A DNA stretch of 40,882 bases from a virus, in IMG/VR virus record IMGVR_UViG_3300048536_000332, positions 1 through 40,882 of that record. One strand, written 5' to 3'. Position 1 is the stretch's first letter; each line of letters begins with the position of its first letter. Position numbers and translations under genes: made by a program. Below are positions 3,010 through 40,882 of the stretch, piece after piece. The notes under the pieces are model-generated. The model had not been told where the DNA came from, made no database searches, and worked only from the letters and a program-made list of their open reading frames with translations.

Positions 3010-3216
3010 ATGGCACACACAACAACGGGAAGCGTCTATTTACCCAATGGTTATCGGCTTGCTTTCAATTGCGATTCTGTTGTGCCAGCGAGTGTGGCGA
3101 CAAAGAAAGCGCAGGCGTATGCCGAACGTACAGGGAAGACAATTTACGTTCCTGGGCTAGGTACTTTTTCATCTACACCACCAGCACCACCAGCTGATCC
3201 CATAAAAAAGGTTTAG
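3010..3216 (+). CDS. Short product of a frameshift gene (68 aa)
   Basis: The zero-frame product is 68 residues: a compact N-terminal part (MAHTTTGSVYLPNGYRLAFN), then a Pro-rich linker (TPPAPPADPIKK), then V-stop at 3214-3216. The last sense codons ATA AAA AAG contain the canonical -1 slippery heptamer A-AAA-AAG (3204-3210). Slippage fuses this product to the Ig-like extension in the -1 frame. It lies directly upstream of the large terminase gene. No family is recognised for the N-terminal part. Short phage structural proteins extended by Ig-like domains through frameshifting are a known theme, so a minor decoration or tail protein is a fair guess. No SD precedes the ATG. Confidence 0.7.
   Translation: MAHTTTGSVYLPNGYRLAFNCDSVVPASVATKKAQAYAERTGKTIYVPGLGTFSSTPPAPPADPIKKV
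3204..3210 (+). promoter_or_regulatory. Programmed -1 frameshift slippery site A-AAA-AAG
   Basis: The heptamer is correctly phased to the 3010 frame (ATA-AAA-AAG). After slipping, reading resumes at GGT (3210), giving K-K-G-L-A-P-T-L-T-G-S-A-V-V-G, which is exactly the usual entry into an Ig-like strand. A modest CCAAC/GTTGG stem (from 3219) lies downstream. A lost A in this homopolymer would produce the same picture and cannot be excluded. Confidence 0.65.
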
Positions 3217-3812
3217 CCCCAACGTTGACTGGTTCAGCTGTTGTTGGTGAAACACTTACAGCGACAGCTGGCACCTTTAGCGGTGGGGAAGGAGCACTCA
3301 CGGTCACAACGACCATCAAGAAGTCGGATACGGGTTCTGGTGGCTGGTCAAATGCCACATCGAACCTGACTTATGAGTTACAGGCAGGTGATGACAGCAA
3401 GTATTTCCGTGTCGCCAGTAACGCCAAGGATGATGCTGGCCAATCGCTGAACAGCAATTCAGCTGTCGTTGGTCCTGTCATTACTCCAACAGAGATCAAG
3501 TTCGTCTCTATCACTGTTGATGGAGTGCTGACTACTTATGGAGAACCAATTTATTGCAAGGTTAACGATGCGTTAGCGGTTGAAGCTGCAATTACTGGTG
3601 ATGCAAGCCCGTCATACAAATGGGAAGCTCGCGGTAATTACCCCATGGTGGTTTCAGAGCAAGCTGCGATTACAACGCTCACCTTCCCTCAAGAAGGCAG
3701 TGCCACTGTCACTTTGACGGTGACTGATCGAACCGCGACAGATTCACCCATTACTTATGGGATGACTTTCTACATCGCTTCTCAAGCGGAATGGGACGCT
3801 CTGCATCCATGA
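3210..3812 (+). CDS. Ig-like extension, made by -1 frameshifting from the 3010 gene (fusion about 267 aa)
   Basis: About 200 residues in the -1 frame. The first Ig/cadherin-like repeat has the hallmark PTLTGSAVVGETLTATAGTFSGG (split here as PTLTGSAVVG + ETLTATAGTFSGG). A second domain follows at about 110-195, ending with alternating strands (SATVTLTVTDRTATDSPI). Phage Ig-like domains sit on virion surfaces and may bind host glycans. An independent start would need TTG at 3225, poorly placed behind AAGG at 3208, and would remove the first strand (GLAP). This favours frameshift synthesis over separate initiation. The stop TGA at 3810-3812 overlaps the terminase ATG at 3809 (ATGA), so the two genes are translationally coupled. 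Confidence 0.65.
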   Translation, partial: GLAPTLTGSAVVGETLTATAGTFSGGEGALTVTTTIKKSDTGSGGWSNATSNLTYELQAGDDSKYFRVASNAKDDAGQSLNSNSAVVGPVITPTEIKFVSITVDGVLTTYGEPIYCKVNDALAVEAAITGDASPSYKWEARGNYPMVVSEQAAITTLTFPQEGSATVTLTVTDRTATDSPITYGMTFYIASQAEWDALHP

Positions 3813-5587
3813 GTTGGCAGCCATTGCCAGAAGAACTGGAACCACTGGCACATTTCACGACATACATCCTGCGTGAGCTGTCTTTAGCTGATACACCAAC
3901 TAAACAACAGCTAGGGATTCTTAACTATTTAGAGCACGGACCTGATAGACAGATTGTCACTGCATATCGGGGATGCGGAAAAAGTTTCCTTACTTCTGTC
4001 TACGCCTTATGGCGTTTAATGCAGGATCCGTTCCGTGAAAAGATCCTGTTGGTGGGAGCGACGGCAGATAAGGCCATTGAAATATCCACGTTCATGTTGC
4101 GGTTGGTGCGGGACGTTGACATCCTCGAATCACTGCAGCCGCTGCCTGATGGCCGTGGATCCGTTAATGCATGGGATGTCGGCCCATCAGTTGTTGATCA
4201 AAGTCCGTCAGTCCGCGCAGTTGGATTGTTAAGCCCAAGCTTGACCGGAAAGCGTTGTACGGCAGCGGTCATCGACGATTGCGAAACATTATCCAACTCA
4301 ATCACGGTTCTGAAGCAGGAACGATTAGCTGCTGCAATTACAGAGATTGAGGCGATCAGAAAGCCGTCAGTGAAAGGGGAGTTACCACGAAAGACAATCT
4401 TTCTTGGTACGCCGCACCTTGAATCAAGTTTGTATTTGAGGCTGAGACGAGAAAGGAATTATCGAGCAAGATTCTGGCCGGCACGTTTTCCTGATCCTGC
4501 TTCTGAAGCTTGGGATTCCTATGAAGGATGTTTGGATCCAGCTATTGCAGCAGAAGTAGAAGATGATCCATCGCTGGTAGGTGAACCAACCGATCCTGAA
4601 CGTTTTGGTCATGACGAGTTATTGGCACGGGAGATGTCAATGACACGCGCAAGTGTCCAACTCCAGTATCAACTCGATTGCCGGTTATCAACGCTTGAGC
4701 GTTATCCAATACGTCTTGGTGATCTGATCGTTATGGATCTCGATGGCAAGGCATTGCCTGAGGTTGTGAGTTGGGCATCAGGACCAGAGCAGGTGATTCA
4801 AGATCTGGTTTGTATTGGTCTTGGCGCTGATCGGCACTATCACCGTCCGATGGTTGTGCAGGGCTGGGTGTCAGCAAAGGAGACGTGGCGCTGCGTTCTT
4901 TCGATCGATCCCTCAGGCCGAGGTCGCGATGAAATGGCTTGGACAATTCTCGCTGAATACTCGGGAAATTTCTTTGTGCTGGAGTCCGGTGGCACTACCC
5001 AGGGTTATTCCGAGGAAGTGCTGAAGATGCTGGCGATGAGGGCCAAGCGTTGGAACGTGACGCAGATCGTTGTGGAATCCAACTTTGGCGATGGCCTCTT
5101 TGCTGCTTTGCTGCAGCCGGTGATGAATAAGGTTCACCCTTGTGGCATTGAAGAGATCAGGGTCAACCAGCAGAAGGAACGCCGTATCTGTGACCAGCTG
5201 GCACCGCTCACCCAGCAGCACAGGCTGATCGTTAGCAGCGATGTGATCCGTAAGGATTATCAAGACGCTGAACGCAATAACGATCGCGGCTATGAACGCT
5301 CACTGCTGTTCCAGATGAGCCGCATAACGATGGACAGAAATTCGCTCTCAGCAGATGACCGAATCGATAGTTTGGCTTTGGCCTGTCAATTCTTCACTGA
5401 AGCAGCAGCGCAAGATCAGAACCGTGTTGCCGCAAATCGTGAATACGAGATGTTCATGAACCAGATCGAAATGGCTGCTGATGAGACAGGAGCCAGTATC
5501 GATGCACTGGCTCTTGGTCTACCAACCAAATCCATTGGACGGTCGTATGGAGGCTCTAGGCGTGGCGTTCCTGGTCGGCACCTTTAA
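3809..5587 (+). CDS. terL: Terminase large subunit, T7 gp19-like
   Basis: A 592-residue DNA packaging motor and headful/terminus nuclease (T7 gp19 is about 586). The ATPase domain has Walker A TAYRGCGKS at residues 51-59 and Walker B AAVIDDCE near 152-158. The C-terminal RNase H-fold nuclease has its acidic residues in LSIDPSGRGRDE (about 366), VVESNFGDG (about 422) and DDRIDSLAL (about 516). I chose ATG 3809, which overlaps the preceding stop (ATGA), rather than the in-frame ATG at 3791. The small-subunit candidate lies on the opposite strand and overlaps its 3' end by 32 bases, unlike T7, where gp18 is upstream on the same strand. Confidence 0.95.
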   Translation: MSWQPLPEELEPLAHFTTYILRELSLADTPTKQQLGILNYLEHGPDRQIVTAYRGCGKSFLTSVYALWRLMQDPFREKILLVGATADKAIEISTFMLRLVRDVDILESLQPLPDGRGSVNAWDVGPSVVDQSPSVRAVGLLSPSLTGKRCTAAVIDDCETLSNSITVLKQERLAAAITEIEAIRKPSVKGELPRKTIFLGTPHLESSLYLRLRRERNYRARFWPARFPDPASEAWDSYEGCLDPAIAAEVEDDPSLVGEPTDPERFGHDELLAREMSMTRASVQLQYQLDCRLSTLERYPIRLGDLIVMDLDGKALPEVVSWASGPEQVIQDLVCIGLGADRHYHRPMVVQGWVSAKETWRCVLSIDPSGRGRDEMAWTILAEYSGNFFVLESGGTTQGYSEEVLKMLAMRAKRWNVTQIVVESNFGDGLFAALLQPVMNKVHPCGIEEIRVNQQKERRICDQLAPLTQQHRLIVSSDVIRKDYQDAERNNDRGYERSLLFQMSRITMDRNSLSADDRIDSLALACQFFTEAAAQDQNRVAANREYEMFMNQIEMAADETGASIDALALGLPTKSIGRSYGGSRRGVPGRHL

Positions 5588-8562: not shown

Positions 8563-9270
8563 ATGGCTTACTGGCAATCACCAGTCATCTACACCGAACC
8601 ATTCATTTGCGAATACGCGAAGGTCTTGGGCGAGGCGCGAGGCATTGGCGCTGACGCCCCTGACAAGGACAAGGCATGGTCAGTGAACCTTCTCGGTTCA
8701 GCTGAAGACAAGCAGATCGTTGCTTTGCGCGAACAGATCATGACCTTCATGAAGGAGGCGCATGGCGAAGGCGTTGGTTTTGCCAAAAGCTCAAAGCCAA
8801 AGATCTCAGCCAATGGGATGCCCCTCAAGGCAGAAACAATCAAGAACGAGGAAACCGGCGAGCCTGAGCTGACAGGCCGAATGAAGTTTGTGGTCAAGCG
8901 CAAGCTGGTTCAAAAAGGCGGCGCTTATAACGAAGGGCCACTGGTTATTGATTCTCAAGGCAATGAATGGCCGCAAAATGTCCTGATTGGAAACAATTCA
9001 ATCCTTCGAGTCAAGTTTCATTTTTATGGTTGGGAGTATGAAGGCGTTGGCCTGAGCACAGAGATGCATGCTGTGCAGGTCGTTGAGCACATTCCTTATG
9101 GCGGTGCTGAAGAGCTAAGTGCTGATGGCTTTGGCGTTGTCAAAGGCGGGGCAATCGCACCCAAAGAAGAGGAAGCTGCTCCTGCAGTGGACGAATGCAG
9201 CCTTGATTTCGGCAAAAAGCTAGCGGCAGCCGCTGCTGAAGTCGAAGCCATGGACGATCAACCTTTCTGA
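8563..9270 (+). CDS. Single-stranded DNA-binding protein, T7 gp2.5-like
   Basis: 235 residues (T7 gp2.5 is 232). The body has the lysine/aromatic-rich beta pattern of the gp2.5 OB-fold (FVVKRKLVQKGG; ILRVKFHFYGWEYEGVGLS). It ends with a low-complexity acidic linker and the tip AMDDQPF. The acidic tail with terminal aromatic is the docking site that SSBs use for polymerases and nucleases. Here the tail looks like a bacterial-type DDxPF tip, suggestive for a phage that must recruit host replication enzymes. It is the first gene of the replication/recombination block. Its stop overlaps the RusA ATG by one base (TGATG). Confidence 0.88.
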   Translation: MAYWQSPVIYTEPFICEYAKVLGEARGIGADAPDKDKAWSVNLLGSAEDKQIVALREQIMTFMKEAHGEGVGFAKSSKPKISANGMPLKAETIKNEETGEPELTGRMKFVVKRKLVQKGGAYNEGPLVIDSQGNEWPQNVLIGNNSILRVKFHFYGWEYEGVGLSTEMHAVQVVEHIPYGGAEELSADGFGVVKGGAIAPKEEEAAPAVDECSLDFGKKLAAAAAEVEAMDDQPF

Positions 9271-9641
9271 TGAAAAAGATGCGACGAGTGCGCATCACTT
9301 TGCACGTTCCTCTCATGAGTAAGGCGCGGCCCAGATCCTTTTCTGGGCAAAAAGTTCCTTACATGCCTGCCAAATATAAAAAGTGGAAGGCAGAGGTTCG
9401 TGCTCAGTTGGCCGAGTGGTGGACTGATCCGCCACTAGATCGAGTTGAGATGGTCATCCTCAAATTCAGAGGTCCAGCAAGAGCTGATCTCGACAATTTG
9501 ATGGGCGCAATTCTTGATTCGGGCAATCAGCTGATTTGGAAAGACGATCGCGTTTCCGTCATCTCAAGGCTGTATGGACAGTTTGAAAAAACAAAAGAAG
9601 CTGACTCCCAAATTGAACTCACGCTCAGGTATTTCTCATGA
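9270..9641 (+). CDS. rusA: RusA-family Holliday junction resolvase
   Basis: 123 residues, the normal size for RusA. It dimerises and cleaves four-way DNA junctions, so it would debranch replicating DNA before packaging. Conserved acidic residues are visible: D73, D75 and N76 in [11 protein letters not shown]83 in ILDSG, and D92/D93 in IWKDDRV. These match the catalytic aspartates of E. coli RusA. It takes the place that endonuclease I (gp3) has in T7. It is translationally coupled on both sides: TGATG with SSB and ATGA with the next gene. Confidence 0.9.
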
Positions 9642-10198
9642 ATTGTCCACATTGCGGCACTGACAAGAGCCGTATTCTCGAAACAAGGGGGGATCGTAGG
9701 GTCCGCCAGTGTTCCAATTGCCTCAAAGATTTTGCGACCTATGAAGTCCTGGCTGCTTACGCCGGTCGCGACAGGGGATGGATCCATGAAGGCCCACCAC
9801 AGGAAGAGGCAGCCGAAAAGCCCAAGCTGTTGCCGAAGCCTGAAAAGAAGAAGCCTGCGCGATTTCATCCTGTTCAGCTGGAAGACGAACTTTTAACTGC
9901 CGACAGGGAACTCGCTGCATTGCTGGTGGCTTGGTGGGATGAATCTCGCTGGTCTAAGCATCAAAGTTCAGCGTCCTGGACTCGTGCTGCATGGCTATCA
10001 AATGCCAATCGAGTAATCGGGATGCCTCATTCCAAGGCATTGGCACTGGCCAAACGTGGAGTGGAGATGGGATGGCAAAGCCTCCAAGAGGAATACGTCA
10101 ATGACGTTTCGTCTTCTACGGATCAAGGGCAAATGGCTCCCCGAAACAGCGCCATGCAAAAAGCAATTGAGCAGATTGAGCAATGGCAAACCAGTTAG
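9638..10198 (+). CDS. Zinc-ribbon protein of unknown function in the replication block
   Basis: 186 residues. Residues 3-33 form a zinc ribbon with C-P-H-C and C-S-N-C knuckles (positions 3/6 and 25/28). A Lys/Pro-rich linker follows (about 60-80), then a helical domain with [16 protein letters not shown] (about 90-105) and a helical end. The C-terminal half is reminiscent of the helical C-domains found in phage replication organisers, but that is a loose resemblance. Its start overlaps the RusA stop (ATGA), and its 3' end overlaps the next gene by 16 bases. It might load replication proteins or bind RNA or DNA; function is not established. Confidence 0.6.
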
Positions 10199-10716
10199 AC
10201 GCTGAAACTTTTCTTTCTGGGGTCGAAATGATCCAGCAGCAACTGCGCATCAAACGCGATGACCAATGGTCAACCAACGTTTGCAAGCTGAAGTACGCAA
10301 GCTTTATGGCTGAATTCCCTGAAGTCAGCAGTGTCCAGTTTTTCTGGGCCTGTGAGCAATGGATTCAGATGTTCTCCGCCAAAGACTTCGCCACATTCCC
10401 AACGTGGCAGGAGTTGATGATTCCGCTCTACGCGGTGGAGAACGGCAGAGCTAATCGCAGCTGGGGTTTCAAGCGAGATCTTCCCGCATTTATTGCGCCA
10501 ACTCCAAGCCAAAAAGCTCAATTGCCAGAAAGGCCCCGCTCAATTGCAGGTGCTGCAGATCCTTTGAATCGTGACGCCTATGAAGTCGTGATTACTCCAA
10601 GGGAAGAGCCACAGCATTTGTTGCCGGAATCAGGTCTGACCGAGAACGGTTTAACCGCTGAGCAGTGGGCCAGCTATTTACGAGAGCTGGAGGCTGAGAT
10701 TGGAACTTCTGATTAG
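10183..10716 (+). CDS. Hypothetical protein in the replication block (177 aa)
   Basis: Residues 1-95 are helical with many aromatics ([27 protein letters not shown]). The region after about 105 is Pro-rich and probably disordered, ending with a short acidic helix. The helical half followed by a disordered tail, and the overlap with a Zn-ribbon gene upstream, resemble small helicase-loader or replisome-organiser proteins in general layout; no signature motif is seen. Start ATG 10183 lies 16 bases inside the previous gene. I do not recognise a family. Confidence 0.6.
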
Positions 10717-10933
10717 CAAGGGCTCTCTTCAACAAATTTTGGAGAGAGGCTTGGTGACCGGAAAGTGGTCAATCGCTCAGTTCAACCGCCGTGATTACAG
10801 GTCTGAAACCAAAGTTCAGCTTGAGCTGATCCTGCCGAGAAGCGGCTTTTTACAAGAACACCCCCAATTCCTTGACCGAAACTTCCGTGACTTATCCGCC
10901 TACGAGAGAGCAAACCATCGTGGAGCTTTCTGA
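10700..10933 (+). CDS. Hypothetical small protein (77 aa), TTG start
   Basis: The frame opens with TTG at 10700 behind an excellent SD (GGAGG at 10689-10693, six bases away) that lies inside the end of the previous gene. The protein (starts [17 protein letters not shown]) has an N-terminal helix-turn-helix-sized segment (SLQQILERGLVTGKWSIAQF) and a basic middle. It overlaps the previous gene by 17 bases. No family is recognised. Confidence 0.55.
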   Translation: MELLISKGSLQQILERGLVTGKWSIAQFNRRDYRSETKVQLELILPRSGFLQEHPQFLDRNFRDLSAYERANHRGAF

Positions 10934-11105
10934 GTTCAAGACCAAGGGGTCAGCTGACATCGACCTTTCAACTCTTCATGCCTATGCCCATTACGCCAGT
11001 GAGGAATACGACAAGAGTTTCCACGCTGACAATGCCCACGATCAAGCCTGGTGGGACGGTGCTCTTGCCATGGCCCGTTGGATCATTGAGGCCGAGGGGC
11101 AATGA
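10920..11105 (+). CDS. Hypothetical small acidic protein (61 aa)
   Basis: An acidic helical protein (HAYAHYASEEYDKSFHAD, WWDGALAMARWIIEAEGQ). I chose GTG 10920, which has a GAGAGAG SD at 10904-10910 and overlaps the previous gene by only 14 bases. An alternative TTG at 10872 would add 16 residues but has no SD. The stop overlaps the exonuclease ATG (ATGA), implying coupling. The acidity and tryptophan-rich end could suit a DNA mimic or protein-binding partner of the exonuclease; this is speculation. Confidence 0.55.
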   Translation: MELSEFKTKGSADIDLSTLHAYAHYASEEYDKSFHADNAHDQAWWDGALAMARWIIEAEGQ

Positions 11106-11854
11106 ACTACATCCTTTATGACCTGGAGTTTTATGCCTATCGTTTTGCAGCCGGCAATTCTGAAGATGTTGAGTTCCCTGGCAGTTGGTGGATTCATACT
11201 TGCAATCACAAAGACGCTTTACTCGACTTCATCGAGCACGCCGAAGGGTTGCTTGCGAAATTCCCAGGACATGATCTGTTCCTCGCTCGCGGCGACAAGC
11301 GGAATTTCCGGCATGACATCTGGCCGGAATACAAGGCAAACCGAAAAGATCGCCGTCGTCCTCCGGGCTATGGCCCATTCCTCCAAGGTGTAAGCGATTA
11401 CGCCAAGAAAAGGAATTGGTTCACGGGTGGATTTAAGGGGGTCGAGGGCGATGACGTCCTTGGCATCCTGAATGAACCAGGCAGCGTCATTGTTTCTGGT
11501 GACAAGGACATGCTTACCCTGCCGGGGCAGCATTACAGGGATGGCGAGCTGATTGAAGTCACCAAAAGCCAGGCTGACGCTGCGTTTTACAAGCAAGCGT
11601 TGACCGGCGATAGCTCTGACAATTATCCCGGTTGCGTCGGGATTGGCGATAAAAACAAGCTTTTCCGCAGTAAGGAATGGCTTACGGCTGATTCAGATGC
11701 GGAGTATTGGGCGCAAGTCCTACATCAATACGAACGCGCTGGATTTGATGAGTCGTATGCAATTAGCCAGGCTCGCTGTGCTCGCATACTCCGGGTCGGA
11801 GAATTCGACTTAGCAGCCGGTACTCCTCACATGTGGAATCCACCAGTAATCTGA
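11102..11854 (+). CDS. 5'-3' exonuclease, T7 gp6 / FEN family
   Basis: 250 residues. It would degrade host DNA, remove RNA primers and make 3' tails for recombination. FEN landmarks are in order: D7 in YDLE; the arch-type basic segment FRHDIWPEYKANRK (about 69-82); the metal cluster EGDDV (E115, D117, D118); SGDKDM (D134, D136); TGDSSDN (D170, D173); and the helix-hairpin motif PGCVGIGDK (176-184). SD GAGGGG lies just before the ATG. It closes the replication block. No DNA polymerase gene accompanies it. Confidence 0.92.
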   Translation: MNYILYDLEFYAYRFAAGNSEDVEFPGSWWIHTCNHKDALLDFIEHAEGLLAKFPGHDLFLARGDKRNFRHDIWPEYKANRKDRRRPPGYGPFLQGVSDYAKKRNWFTGGFKGVEGDDVLGILNEPGSVIVSGDKDMLTLPGQHYRDGELIEVTKSQADAAFYKQALTGDSSDNYPGCVGIGDKNKLFRSKEWLTADSDAEYWAQVLHQYERAGFDESYAISQARCARILRVGEFDLAAGTPHMWNPPVI

Positions 11855-30918: not shown

Positions 30919-33900
30919 ATGACAACTTACGCAACCGATGTTTATAGCGGCACTGGTTCGCAGGTTGAGTTTGCCGTCACGTTTGATTTTATCCAGCGTG
31001 ATCACGTCAAGGTGTTTCGCGTTGACAAGGCTGATGGTGCTGAAGTTGAGCTGACCCAAACCGATACCAACCCAACGGGTGACGAGTACCAGTGGCAGTC
31101 AAACATCTTGATCGAGGTGGGCACTGCGCCTACGACTGAGCAGACGCTGAAGATACAGCGCGACACCCCAGAAGACCAGCAGATAATTCAATGGAATGAT
31201 GGCAGCTACATCGTTGCCGATGATCTCAACACCAGTGATCTGCAATGGCTGTATGGGTTGCAGGAACTAGAGGATAAGTTTGGGCTGCTTTCAACTACAG
31301 CAATTAAATATCTGGGTGCCATTGATCTGACGGTTGACGATGCACCAGCGAGTCCAGCCGGTGGTGACTTCTATATCAATACAGGCACCGGCTCAGTGCT
31401 GGCTAGTTGGACCGGCATCGGTGGCGATGCTGTCGTTGGCTCAGAGCAGGTGATTTACAACTCAGTCAGCTCAGAGTGGCAGATCTTTGCTGTGCCATCG
31501 AGTCAGCAAGGTGTGCTGCAAGTCACTGGCACTAGCCCAATTGAAGTTGATAACACTAATACTCAGCGGCCTGAAGTCTCGATCACGCCAGCGACAACGA
31601 CAGCAGCTGGTTCGATGTCTGCTGCTGATAAGACCAAGCTTGATGGTGTTGAAGCTGGGGCTGAAGCCAACGTCAACGCTGACTGGAACGCAACAACTGG
31701 CGACGCAGAGATTCTGAATAAACCTGCAATTCCAGCTGCTCAGGTGAACTCTGACTGGGATGCAACATCTGGCGTTGCAGAAATACTGAACAAACCAGCG
31801 ATTATTCCTGAGGCTCCATCTGATGGTAAGACCTATGGACGCAAGGATGCTGCATGGTCAGAAGTAGAGCCTGGAGGTGTCACCCAGATTGTTGCTGGCG
31901 ATAACGTAACCATCTCGCCATCCGGTGGTACTGGTGTCGTCACTGTTAATTCAACAGGTGGCGGTGGTGGCGGTGTCCCTGAAGCACCAATTGATGGCAA
32001 TCAATATGCAAGGCAAGATGCAGGCTGGAGTGTCGTAACAGGCGGCGGCGGTGGTGGTGGTGGCACAACTAAAGCTGACATCTACGGCACAGCTAAGGCT
32101 TGGGGCAAGGTTGCTAGGGACGGCTCTTTAACCGCCGGACTAAATATTGCGTCGTCCGGTCCTAATGGTACTGGTAAATATGACGTGGTGTTTACTACAC
32201 CTATGCCGAACGCTAATTATGCAATTACGTTCGGTTTTGATGAGACAAGCGGTAACGGCGTTGCTATAAAAGCAACCAACCAAACTGCTAATGGTTTCTC
32301 GGTAACCATCTTGGACAATCCAGCAGGCGGTTCAGTAGTTAATAGTGCTTTTAACTTTGCTCTCTACGACAACGAACCAGCAGAGATCATCGTCGGTTCA
32401 GGCACAGTAACTAACACCAACCTGTACGGCACAGCTAAAGCTTGGGCTGATGTTGAGGCTGATGGGACTCTTAATAACGGAATGAATATAGCTTCAGTTT
32501 CTGTAAATTCAGCAAATTTATTCGTATATGACGTGGTGTTCATTACGCCTATGCCTGACAATGCATATGCTGTAAATGTAACTGTAAATGATTCTAATGG
32601 AGGGTTCGCTTACACTCGAAATCTCACACCTACTGGCTTTCAATACGTTACCAGGGATAATAATGGTACTGGTGCTGCAAGGGACGCAGACTTTAGCGTC
32701 TTCGACCAAGAACCAGCAGAGGTTGCACTAACAACTTTCGGTGATGTCATTAACTATGGCGGTGCTAGTGCTTGGGGGTATGTAACCAGCGCTTCGGGTT
32801 TAGTCAATGGATTAAATATTGCTTCAGTAACACCTATAAGTACTGGTGTTTATGACGTGGTGTTTACCACGCCAATGCCGAACGCTGATTATGCAATTAC
32901 TGGGGCTTCCACCACCTCAGCGGGCGCGTTTAGGGTTGTTAGTTTTGGATTTCGAACCGCTAATGGGTTCCGTGCAAATGTTTTTAACTCCAACAACGCT
33001 GCATCCGGGGAGGCGTTTAGCTTCGCCGTCCACAGCTCGAACGCACTCCCTCCCAAGGGCGGCACGGGGACAGATAGCTGGGCAACTTGCCAAGCTGATG
33101 GAACGATTGATGCCAGCTTTAATGTTGCTTCAGTAACTAGCACTTCAACAGGAGTTTATGACGTTCTCTTTACCACTCCCATGCCTTCTGGTTCGTATGC
33201 CATTACGGGTAGTGTGACCAGAGACCCTGGTGAAAACTCATCCCGATCTTTTAATATCATCACTCAGTCCGCAAGTGGGTTCACATGTCAGATTAAAGCC
33301 AATACCTCTGTTGTAGAAAACCCATTCTCCTTCACCGTCAACGCCACCAACGCCCAGTTACCTAACACGGTGACCCAGGAGCAGATTGAGTCTGCTATTA
33401 ATAACCCTGGTGCTAGTGCTTGGGGTGATGTTACCGAGGAGGGAACACTTACCAGTGGTTTGAACATAGCGAGTGTCGTTAGAAATCCACCAACTGGGGC
33501 TAGTTATGAGGTTACATTTTCCACTCCGATGCCTGATGTTAATTACAGCATTGTTGGTACGGCTCTAGATCTAGCCGGTCAAGGACGGGAATTCAATTAC
33601 CTGGATAAGACTGCAACAGGATTTACTGTCACACTACGCAGACCTTCTAGTGGTGGTGGTTCTCCTGGTGATTTCTCCTTCACCGTCCACGCTACCAACG
33701 CCCTACCACCAAAGGGTGGTACAGGTACAGATAGCTGGGCAAGTGTTCAAGCTGATGGCACGATTGATGCAAGCTTTAATGTTGCGTCGGTAACTAGAAC
33801 AGGAACAGGTCAATACAACGTAGTATTTACTACGCCGATGCCTACGGCAAATTATTCAGTTATTGCCATCCCTGACGTAAGGACAACCGGAGTTATAAGA

Positions 33901-34962
33901 CCAGTTAATAAGACAACAACTGGTTTTACTGTTGACTCGGTTTATAGCGGTGGTAGTGGCTATATCTATCAGGACACTACTTTCAACTTCGCCGTCAACG
34001 CCACCAACGCAACTCTCCCAAACACGGTAACCCAGGAGCAGATTGAAGCTGCTATTAATAACCCTGGTGCTAGTGCTTGGGGCAATGTATTAAGTAATGG
34101 GACGCTTGCAAATGGGTTAAATATAGCTTCAGTAACTAAAACTGAAACAGGCAAGTATGACGTGGTGTTTGCTTCACCGCTTCCTGATCAAAATTATTCA
34201 GTTGTAGCCAGTAATAATGGTGGTGAGGCGGTTTATGTCAATGCTTATACTCTCACTACTCAGGGGTTTTCTATTGCCTGCTACACCTATGCACCAACCT
34301 TAAAGGACATAGATTTCTCCTTCACCGTCTTCGCAACCAATGCACTCCCACCAAAGGGTGGTACGGGAACAGACGCCTGGGCAAGTGTAGCTGCAGATGG
34401 AACTCTTGGGTCTTCATTCAACATCGCATCAATTGAGAAAACAGGCACTGGTGGTTATAAGGCAACTTTCACAACACCAATGCCAACTGCTGATTACGCT
34501 GTTACAGGGTCAACCATTGTTCCTTCAGCTGGACAGGTTTTTACTTTTGTTGCGTATAACAAAACCACTACTAGCTTTCAATGGGTTACTAACCAAGATA
34601 CCGGCAGTACGAATCCCTATGCAGATTGTGCTGCTTCCTTCCAGGTCAACGCCACCAACGCAACGCTGCCTGCAACTCTGACGCAGGACATGCTGGTGAT
34701 GAAGGCTACGCCTGAACTGACTGGTACGCTTACATCTACAAGTGGTGCTGAGTTTGCTGGCGACATCTCAGCCGACAACGTTATCTTCACACTTGATCCT
34801 GAGCATCCTGAGAAAGTATTAGACATCAAAGCTCGCTTGCAAAATACACAAGCAGTCCTGCTCCGTATTAAGGCAGCTCTTATTCAACCTGATGCAACAG
34901 CTAACGAGTTGCGCAACAGGTTATTGGAAGCACTAGACATCCTTGTTGATGATGACGAGTAA
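30919..34962 (+). CDS. Tail fibre / host-recognition protein with eight tandem repeats
   Basis: 1347 residues (T7 gp17 is 553). Residues 1-125 are the gp17 virion-attachment domain (TDVYSGTGSQVEFAVTF; IQRDTPEDQQIIQWNDGSYI; NTSDLQWLYGLQEL). A collagen-free spacer follows with the common fibre motif KTKLDGVEAGAEANVNADWN and E-I-L-N-K-P-A-I twice, then two poly-Gly hinges (about 350 and 380). Residues about 390-1255 hold eight repeats of 102-114 residues. The C-terminal about 90 residues contain a helical, trimerisation-type end (LDIKARLQNTQAVLLRIKAA). The repeats are the likely receptor-binding shaft. A small membrane protein follows. Confidence 0.92.
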   Translation: MTTYATDVYSGTGSQVEFAVTFDFIQRDHVKVFRVDKADGAEVELTQTDTNPTGDEYQWQSNILIEVGTAPTTEQTLKIQRDTPEDQQIIQWNDGSYIVADDLNTSDLQWLYGLQELEDKFGLLSTTAIKYLGAIDLTVDDAPASPAGGDFYINTGTGSVLASWTGIGGDAVVGSEQVIYNSVSSEWQIFAVPSSQQGVLQVTGTSPIEVDNTNTQRPEVSITPATTTAAGSMSAADKTKLDGVEAGAEANVNADWNATTGDAEILNKPAIPAAQVNSDWDATSGVAEILNKPAIIPEAPSDGKTYGRKDAAWSEVEPGGVTQIVAGDNVTISPSGGTGVVTVNSTGGGGGGVPEAPIDGNQYARQDAGWSVVTGGGGGGGGTTKADIYGTAKAWGKVARDGSLTAGLNIASSGPNGTGKYDVVFTTPMPNANYAITFGFDETSGNGVAIKATNQTANGFSVTILDNPAGGSVVNSAFNFALYDNEPAEIIVGSGTVTNTNLYGTAKAWADVEADGTLNNGMNIASVSVNSANLFVYDVVFITPMPDNAYAVNVTVNDSNGGFAYTRNLTPTGFQYVTRDNNGTGAARDADFSVFDQEPAEVALTTFGDVINYGGASAWGYVTSASGLVNGLNIASVTPISTGVYDVVFTTPMPNADYAITGASTTSAGAFRVVSFGFRTANGFRANVFNSNNAASGEAFSFAVHSSNALPPKGGTGTDSWATCQADGTIDASFNVASVTSTSTGVYDVLFTTPMPSGSYAITGSVTRDPGENSSRSFNIITQSASGFTCQIKANTSVVENPFSFTVNATNAQLPNTVTQEQIESAINNPGASAWGDVTEEGTLTSGLNIASVVRNPPTGASYEVTFSTPMPDVNYSIVGTALDLAGQGREFNYLDKTATGFTVTLRRPSSGGGSPGDFSFTVHATNALPPKGGTGTDSWASVQADGTIDASFNVASVTRTGTGQYNVVFTTPMPTANYSVIAIPDVRTTGVIRPVNKTTTGFTVDSVYSGGSGYIYQDTTFNFAVNATNATLPNTVTQEQIEAAINNPGASAWGNVLSNGTLANGLNIASVTKTETGKYDVVFASPLPDQNYSVVASNNGGEAVYVNAYTLTTQGFSIACYTYAPTLKDIDFSFTVFATNALPPKGGTGTDAWASVAADGTLGSSFNIASIEKTGTGGYKATFTTPMPTADYAVTGSTIVPSAGQVFTFVAYNKTTTSFQWVTNQDTGSTNPYADCAASFQVNATNATLPATLTQDMLVMKATPELTGTLTSTSGAEFAGDISADNVIFTLDPEHPEKVLDIKARLQNTQAVLLRIKAALIQPDATANELRNRLLEALDILVDDDE
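32086..34680 (+). repeat. Eight in-gene tandem repeats in the fibre, arranged as alternating types
   Basis: Repeat starts: about 32086, 32428, 32761, 33073, 33409, 33730, 34066 and 34372 (spacing 306-342). Shared core: W-x-x-V, G-L/F-N-I/V-A-S, Y-D-V-V-F-T-T-P-M-P, Y-A-I-T. From the third repeat on they alternate: odd ones start GASAWG and end NALPPKGGTGT, even ones start D-S/A-W-A and (except the last) end LPNTVTQEQIE, giving a super-repeat of about 650 bases. Confidence 0.9.
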
Positions 34963-40422: not shown

Positions 40423-40878
40423 TCAGGCAATAGCAGGGCAGGCCTTCTCAGCAATCGTCCGGGCCGTTTGCATTTGCCACCGGTTCCAATCAATGGTGAA
40501 AGGCACTGATGCCATGCCGCACCACTTTTCAGTCGGTGTGCCATCTTTCAGGCCGTCAATCATCCACTGACCCTTAACGGAATAAACACCGCTACAGGCA
40601 GTGAAAGCACGGCACAACGCATTAAGCCGTGACTTAGTGGTAACCGTCTCCCATCCAGCATCCATCAAATACATGTTGCAGCTACTGGGATAGATGGTTG
40701 CAATCAAGTTTCCGTGCAACTCAACGTCGATCGTGTGCAGATAGCCAGCAGTGCCACGAATGCCAGTTACTCGGTCAATCACCTCAGTGTTGCCTGACTT
40801 CCAGCTGGCCTTACAGGTCTTCCTGCCATCAGCAAATGTCTGAACGGCAGCAATCATCAGAGCTTCAATCTTTCTCAT
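40423..40878 (-). CDS. Hypothetical protein (151 aa), complete copy
   Basis: 151 residues starting MRKIEALMIAAVQTFADGRK. The first half is strand-rich with several Thr/Gly (YLHTIDVELHGNLIATIYPS), the second half helical, and about six cysteines are scattered. No signal peptide or membrane segment. No family recognised. The start lies beside the right window edge; its CA-rich leader is seen in the left copy at 179-213. It ends just before the candidate att core. The 5' 178 bases are duplicated at the left end of the window. Confidence 0.75.
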   Translation of the reverse strand: MRKIEALMIAAVQTFADGRKTCKASWKSGNTEVIDRVTGIRGTAGYLHTIDVELHGNLIATIYPSSCNMYLMDAGWETVTTKSRLNALCRAFTACSGVYSVKGQWMIDGLKDGTPTEKWCGMASVPFTIDWNRWQMQTARTIAEKACPAIA

Positions 40879-40882
40879 GGTT
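40701..40882. repeat. Terminal direct repeat, right copy (matches 1-182)
   Basis: Same 182 bases as the left end with A at 40828 and 40834 where the left copy has G. Joining the two ends gives a circle of about 40,700 bp. Confidence 0.95.

Follow-up and report, generated by a model that had tools for sequence, protein, structure and literature searches.

Programmed -1 frameshifting is an established way of appending Ig-like domains to phage structural proteins, the capsid gene of phage T3 and Lactobacillus phage A2 being the reviewed examples (PMC5009743), and an earlier note on the DNA studied here was right to invoke it as a known strategy. In T3 and A2, ribosomes slipping by -1 shortly before the gene ends give a share of the product an Ig-like domain, and relatives carry in-frame versions, as at the present locus. 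The frequency of this arrangement has been suggested to reflect chance out-of-frame landing of the domain followed by selection (PMC5009743). Kuravirus-like phages provide a second parallel, as they are podoviruses in which a slippery heptamer before the stop leads into an Ig-like extension, and their heptamer, GGGAAAG (PMC9965538), is also found at one of our loci (L176). The signal itself is of the kind found in Escherichia coli dnaX and IS3/IS911-type elements, where A_AAA_AAG is followed by a stem-loop 5-8 nt on, and A_AAA_AAG, G_GGA_AAG and C_CCA_AAG are all strongly prone to shifting in E. coli (PMC5009743, PMC4066793). The present locus departs from these systems in several respects. 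The examples that the review names are proteins of the coat or the tail (PMC5009743) and the Kuravirus-like base is the major capsid protein (PMC9965538), whereas here the base is a small protein, termed the N-domain protein, encoded beside the terminase large subunit gene (terL), or a metalloprotease-like protein. Unlike in T3 and A2, the slip site, a predicted hairpin and the first Ig-like domain (Ig1) appear to have been exchanged as a unit, and module exchange is not reported in the accessible text on the Kuravirus-like phages. Compared with dnaX, IS3 and IS911, the product is different and inspection by eye revealed no consistently present upstream Shine-Dalgarno stimulator.

The window (the whole stretch of DNA analysed, a 40,882-base IMG/VR virus record) derives from an uncultured T7-like phage, and the locus of interest is a short protein gene beside the DNA-packaging gene. 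T7-type RNA polymerase, portal and capsid were detected, together with lysozyme, integrase and an ArdC-like protein, and the window is bounded by a direct terminal repeat of 182 nt with 99% identity (1-182 and 40701-40882). The terL gene (3812-5587, + strand; its start is approximate, since an ORF begins at 3791 in this frame) lies directly downstream of the extension and matches Pfam Terminase-T7_RNaseH-like (E 3e-36) and phrog_38 (E 6e-78). Using the terminase of the related contig L002 as query, the nearest described relatives are uncultured Mediterranean phages and Synechococcus phage S-SRP02 (PMC8790148). Elsewhere in the window, RusA, an NrdR-like zinc ribbon and a 5'-3' exonuclease were found at 8563-11851, with no DNA polymerase domain among the selected ORFs scanned, and a long tail-fibre-like gene (30919-34962) contains repeated units of about 300-340 nt at 32161-34505. 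A small protein with a signal-peptide-like start is encoded at 2623-2964; it gave no significant family match and has a close counterpart at the corresponding position of L001 (2347-2718).

The short product is a 68-residue protein read from the ATG at 3010 (3010-3216, + strand), consisting of the N-domain (motif VYLPNGYRLAF...YVPGLG) and a Pro-rich linker. Its last codons, ATA AAA AAG GTT TAG, place the heptamer A_AAA_AAG (3204-3210, six A at 3204-3209 followed by G at 3210) in phase for tandem -1 slippage. The earlier note had identified this in-phase heptamer and a nearby stop, although it put the stop two codons away; a single sense codon (GTT) intervenes before the TAG at 3214-3216. The -1 frame past the heptamer (3210-3812, + strand) reads K-K-G-L-A-P-T-L-T-G-S and continues KKGLAPTLTGSAVVGETLTATAGTFSGG..., giving 200 open residues up to the stop at 3810-3812, in agreement with the length of about 200 proposed before. 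Upstream, the -1 frame is closed until 3198, so that a switch is possible only within the approximately 18 nt of frame overlap that hold the heptamer. We scanned both strands of the 40.9 kb window for X_XXY_YYZ heptamers in a 0-frame of at least 60 codons with a stop at most 10 codons away and a -1 extension of at least 150 codons, and the heptamer at 3204-3210 was the single site recovered. In 60 dinucleotide shuffles no A_AAA_AAG site of this kind arose, and all X_XXY_YYZ heptamers together gave two. The arrangement is thus not due to chance.

We then searched for relatives by scans with the read-through protein, by terL, N-domain and Ig1 alignments, and with two DNA patterns. The same junction was found ahead of terL in five other uncultured phage contigs (L002, L008, L105, L177 and L176), with the heptamer in identical phase in each and the 0-frame stop 1-6 codons past it across the six loci. 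Four of the five carry A_AAA_AAG, namely L002 (ATA AAA AAG TCC AAA GCC CGA CGC TGA), L008 (TTA AAA AAG AAG TAA), L105 (CTA AAA AAG AAA TAG) and L177 (CTA AAA AAG AAC TAG). At the homologous place L176 has TTG GGA AAG, i.e., G_GGA_AAG, so the heptamer class is kept despite changed bases; this contig begins within the linker, leaving any N-domain off the contig. A pattern made of the heptamer and 'PTLTG' DNA matched 26 stretches, with the slip-to-Ig architecture only in L002 (L087) and L008 (L157). The last pattern asked for no more than AAAG together with a Gly-Thr-Phe-Ser-Gly-Gly motif at a distance. All five loci were recovered with it, and XXX preceded AAAG in every one of them and in none of the unrelated matches. 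Neither the DNA nor the read-through product matched any of the annotated phages searched, and scanning genome contigs with Ig1 returned two distant matches only, both in bacterial MAG contigs. Separately, an AAAAAAG ends a holin-like gene in L102 (2239-2245) and L103 (3796-3802), with a 72-residue -1 extension; as it has no counterpart in the L002 and L091 homologues, this site is possibly a chance occurrence.

The extension consists of Ig1 (about 3210-3488) and a PKD-like domain (to 3812). Its assignment as Ig-like is based on the sequence pattern PTLTGxxVVGETLT..GTFSGG; the Pfam matches of the window extension, PKD (E 0.0018) and IG_AIR9 (E 0.09), are both below the curated cut-off, as is the whole range of IG_AIR9 matches obtained (E 0.004-0.09). 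The -1 frame extension is under purifying selection. Between the window and L002, Ig1 in the -1 frame gave a dN of 0.12 and a dS of 1.32, while the other two frames contain stops and show no purifying selection; other locus pairs agree on selection in the -1 frame, L008 being the weakest (pN/pS 0.68). The earlier proposal of a programmed -1 frameshift into Ig-like domains is supported by the conservation of the heptamer and of both frames in relatives.

A predicted RNA hairpin, the likely stimulator of the -1 shift, spans 3217-3288 (+ strand) and begins 6 nt past the heptamer, with the 0-frame stop inside the spacer. Its predicted energy is -39.9 kcal/mol, or about 0.55 kcal/mol/nt, compared to an average of 0.452 kcal/mol/nt for 271 IS3-family hairpins (PMC4066793). 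A strong hairpin is predicted at all six loci, starting about 5-7 nt past the heptamer, within the spacing of 5-8 nt reported for known cases (PMC4066793). Fold z-scores were -5.0 for the window, -5.4 for L002, -5.0 for L008, -2.9 for L105, -3.3 for L177 and -3.0 for L176, and none of 200 shuffles folded as well as the native sequence at any of the loci. When synonymous codons of the -1 frame were shuffled, the native energy was rarely matched at five of the six loci (window 2, L002 1, L008 0, L177 12 and L176 5 of 500), while the L105 hairpin was unexceptional in this test at 80 nt (35 of 500). In L105 and L177 the pairing partner lies a few bases further on, with predicted energies of -42.9 and -53.9 over 107 nt, respectively, and all five pairs that vary between these two hairpins remain paired. 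The basal stem, for which four sequences align in one register, is 98% paired, and in two of its pairs both partners have changed; control pair shuffles did as well in 53-64 of 500 cases, and covariation drawn from this small a set of sequences supports the hairpin rather than proving it. The initial 27 codons of Ig1 contain the predicted hairpin, so the stimulator would be encoded inside the Ig domain.

The N-domain gene stands directly 5' of terL in most terL loci examined, mostly without an extension. It has no convincing relative among the PHROGs and PDB profiles; the base protein reaches phrog_21641 ('virion structural protein') at no better than E 0.032, and its 45-member family has no common match. 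It is thus at most a putative virion protein. In eight loci (L001, L007, L013, L088, L089, L093, L099 and L100) the N-domain continues in frame into a single PKD/Ig-like domain. Ig1, a strong hairpin and an in-phase heptamer near the junction are absent from all eight, the best 80-nt folds at the junctions range from -25 to -33, and L099 and L100 share a GGGAAAC that is out of place. Fused homologues without a slippery site, which the earlier note had named as evidence against its reading, thus do exist, but as they lack Ig1, the in-phase heptamer and the strong hairpin, they serve as controls. The phages nearest by terL likewise have N-domain genes before terL, and no slip site was found at these loci. 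In S-SRP02 the gene encodes the N-domain alone and is unannotated (L085:4665-4886), whereas in the uncultured phage MedDCM-OCT-S31-C1 (AP013547.1, L086) one N-domain-like protein carries in-frame Ig arrays and a second, like that of L111, a metalloprotease-like domain with the motif HEMGH. Metalloprotease-like proteins (HEMGH or HELLH motif) are encoded directly 5' of terL in L086 (2884-3999), L111 (3429-4505) and L177 (3-725), and this part has no Pfam family match in any of the three. It is fused to the N-domain in L086 and L111; in L177 it forms the protein 5' of the slip site (27% identity over 147 aa, E 1e-12, to the L086 protein), and the contig ends before the start of the gene, so any N-domain lies off the contig. 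Tandem N-domain proteins precede terL in L005 (511-1196), L010 (1390-2012) and L011 (1081-1703), the first of each pair having a different C-terminal domain (GxGYTDxSxNGVELRDTG...). The in-frame Ig arrays and the PKD/Ig and metalloprotease fusions suggest that frameshifting is one of several routes by which the N-domain gene has acquired modules.

Altogether, the sequence, its conservation, the predicted structure and the selection on the extension make it very probable that one gene gives rise to two proteins through programmed -1 ribosomal frameshifting with an exchangeable module, the slip itself and the share of ribosomes that undergo it being inferred. The majority of ribosomes would read A_AAA_AAG in frame and terminate, producing the 68-residue N-domain protein. 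Some would be paused by the hairpin 6 nt downstream, allowing the two Lys-tRNAs to re-pair on AAA AAA, and after the -1 slip translation would continue through the Ig-like and PKD-like domains to give a protein of about 267 residues. Attachment of the protein to the virion is most likely the task of the N-domain. The Ig/PKD domains, carried by a minority of copies, may decorate the virion surface and probably aid adsorption, a role we propose because Ig-like extensions are known in phage structural proteins (PMC5009743, PMC9965538) and because the C-terminal domains are exchangeable.

The slip site, hairpin and Ig1 look like one unit exchanged between phages, which would bring its own expression signal and is joined to different upstream proteins in this phage group. 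The window resembles L008 in terL (82% identity) and N-domain (83%) and has only 37% identity to it in Ig1, whereas it shares just 53% of terL and 37% of the N-domain with L002 but 81% of Ig1; the terL and N-domain trees are accordingly at odds with Ig1. In nearly all pairs, DNA identity is at or near chance 5' of the heptamer and higher 3' of it, the clear exception being L002 and L176, which have the upstream part in common. Exchange is the simplest reading of the discordance that these comparisons show, its route being inferred. We lean, with some reserve, towards a self-contained module, with heptamer, stimulator hairpin and Ig domain passing jointly from one phage protein to another, unrelated one. 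The main rival accepts the frameshifting and holds that a single ancestral frameshift fusion was inherited while its surroundings were replaced or diverged. This would fit the shared genomic place of the six loci, directly 5' of terL, but we consider it distinctly less probable, given that the window groups with L008 by terL and N-domain and with L002 by Ig1, that L002 and L176 share 95% of terL and only 72% of Ig1, less than the window and L002 do, and that L007 and L013, close to the window in backbone, have no slip site.

The remaining alternatives dispense with ribosomal slippage. Transcriptional slippage, by which the A run would gain one A and normal translation would give the long protein, leads to the same frame and has a six-A run available at five of the six loci, yet it is improbable in the extreme: in the well-known examples from bacteria about nine A or T are required (PMC5009743), the run here is at most six A long and is followed by G at every locus, the GGGAAAG of L176 contains no long run, and the phase and the downstream hairpin match ribosomal slippage. 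An assembly error or recent mutation, with a missing base disguising a single frame or a decaying pseudogene, might seem to gain from the in-frame N-domain-PKD/Ig fusions of relatives, but these lack the in-phase heptamer and the strong hairpin, and other relatives have no extension at all, which makes a lost base very unlikely. Moreover, the slippery heptamer, stop and open -1 frame occur at the same junction in six separate assemblies, which answers the earlier note's own concern about a missing A, and the extension is under strong purifying selection with the hairpin conserved. Re-initiation past the 0-frame stop, making the Ig part a separate protein, could use a TTG at 3225 in the -1 frame shortly past the stop, but it can be given just as little credence, because a start there would remove the first Ig strand, the first ATG, GTG or TTG of that frame past the heptamer in L002 is a TTG at 704 inside Ig1, and the conserved heptamer phase would be left unexplained.

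Programmed ribosomal frameshifting, as read in the earlier note, is thus supported. To that account the analysis adds a predicted hairpin past the heptamer, counterparts fused in frame, and the apparent exchange of slip site and Ig1 between different upstream proteins. Frameshifted Ig extensions are already known; what is new is the N-domain family beside terL, a signal built into the Ig domain and evidence for their joint exchange. A literature search that covered few subscription papers yielded no description of the terL-adjacent family or of an exchanged frameshift-Ig module. If the module is indeed mobile, its landing near the 3' end of a gene would create a low-dose Ig-tagged protein while the untagged form is retained. 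A signal travelling with its domain makes it testable whether phages receive a ready-made module or depend on chance landing, and related phages in which the protein encoded at one genomic position is unextended, extended in frame or extended by a frameshift form a natural comparison set. The small terL-adjacent proteins of aquatic T7-like phages seem to be a platform for the display of Ig, PKD and metalloprotease-like modules.
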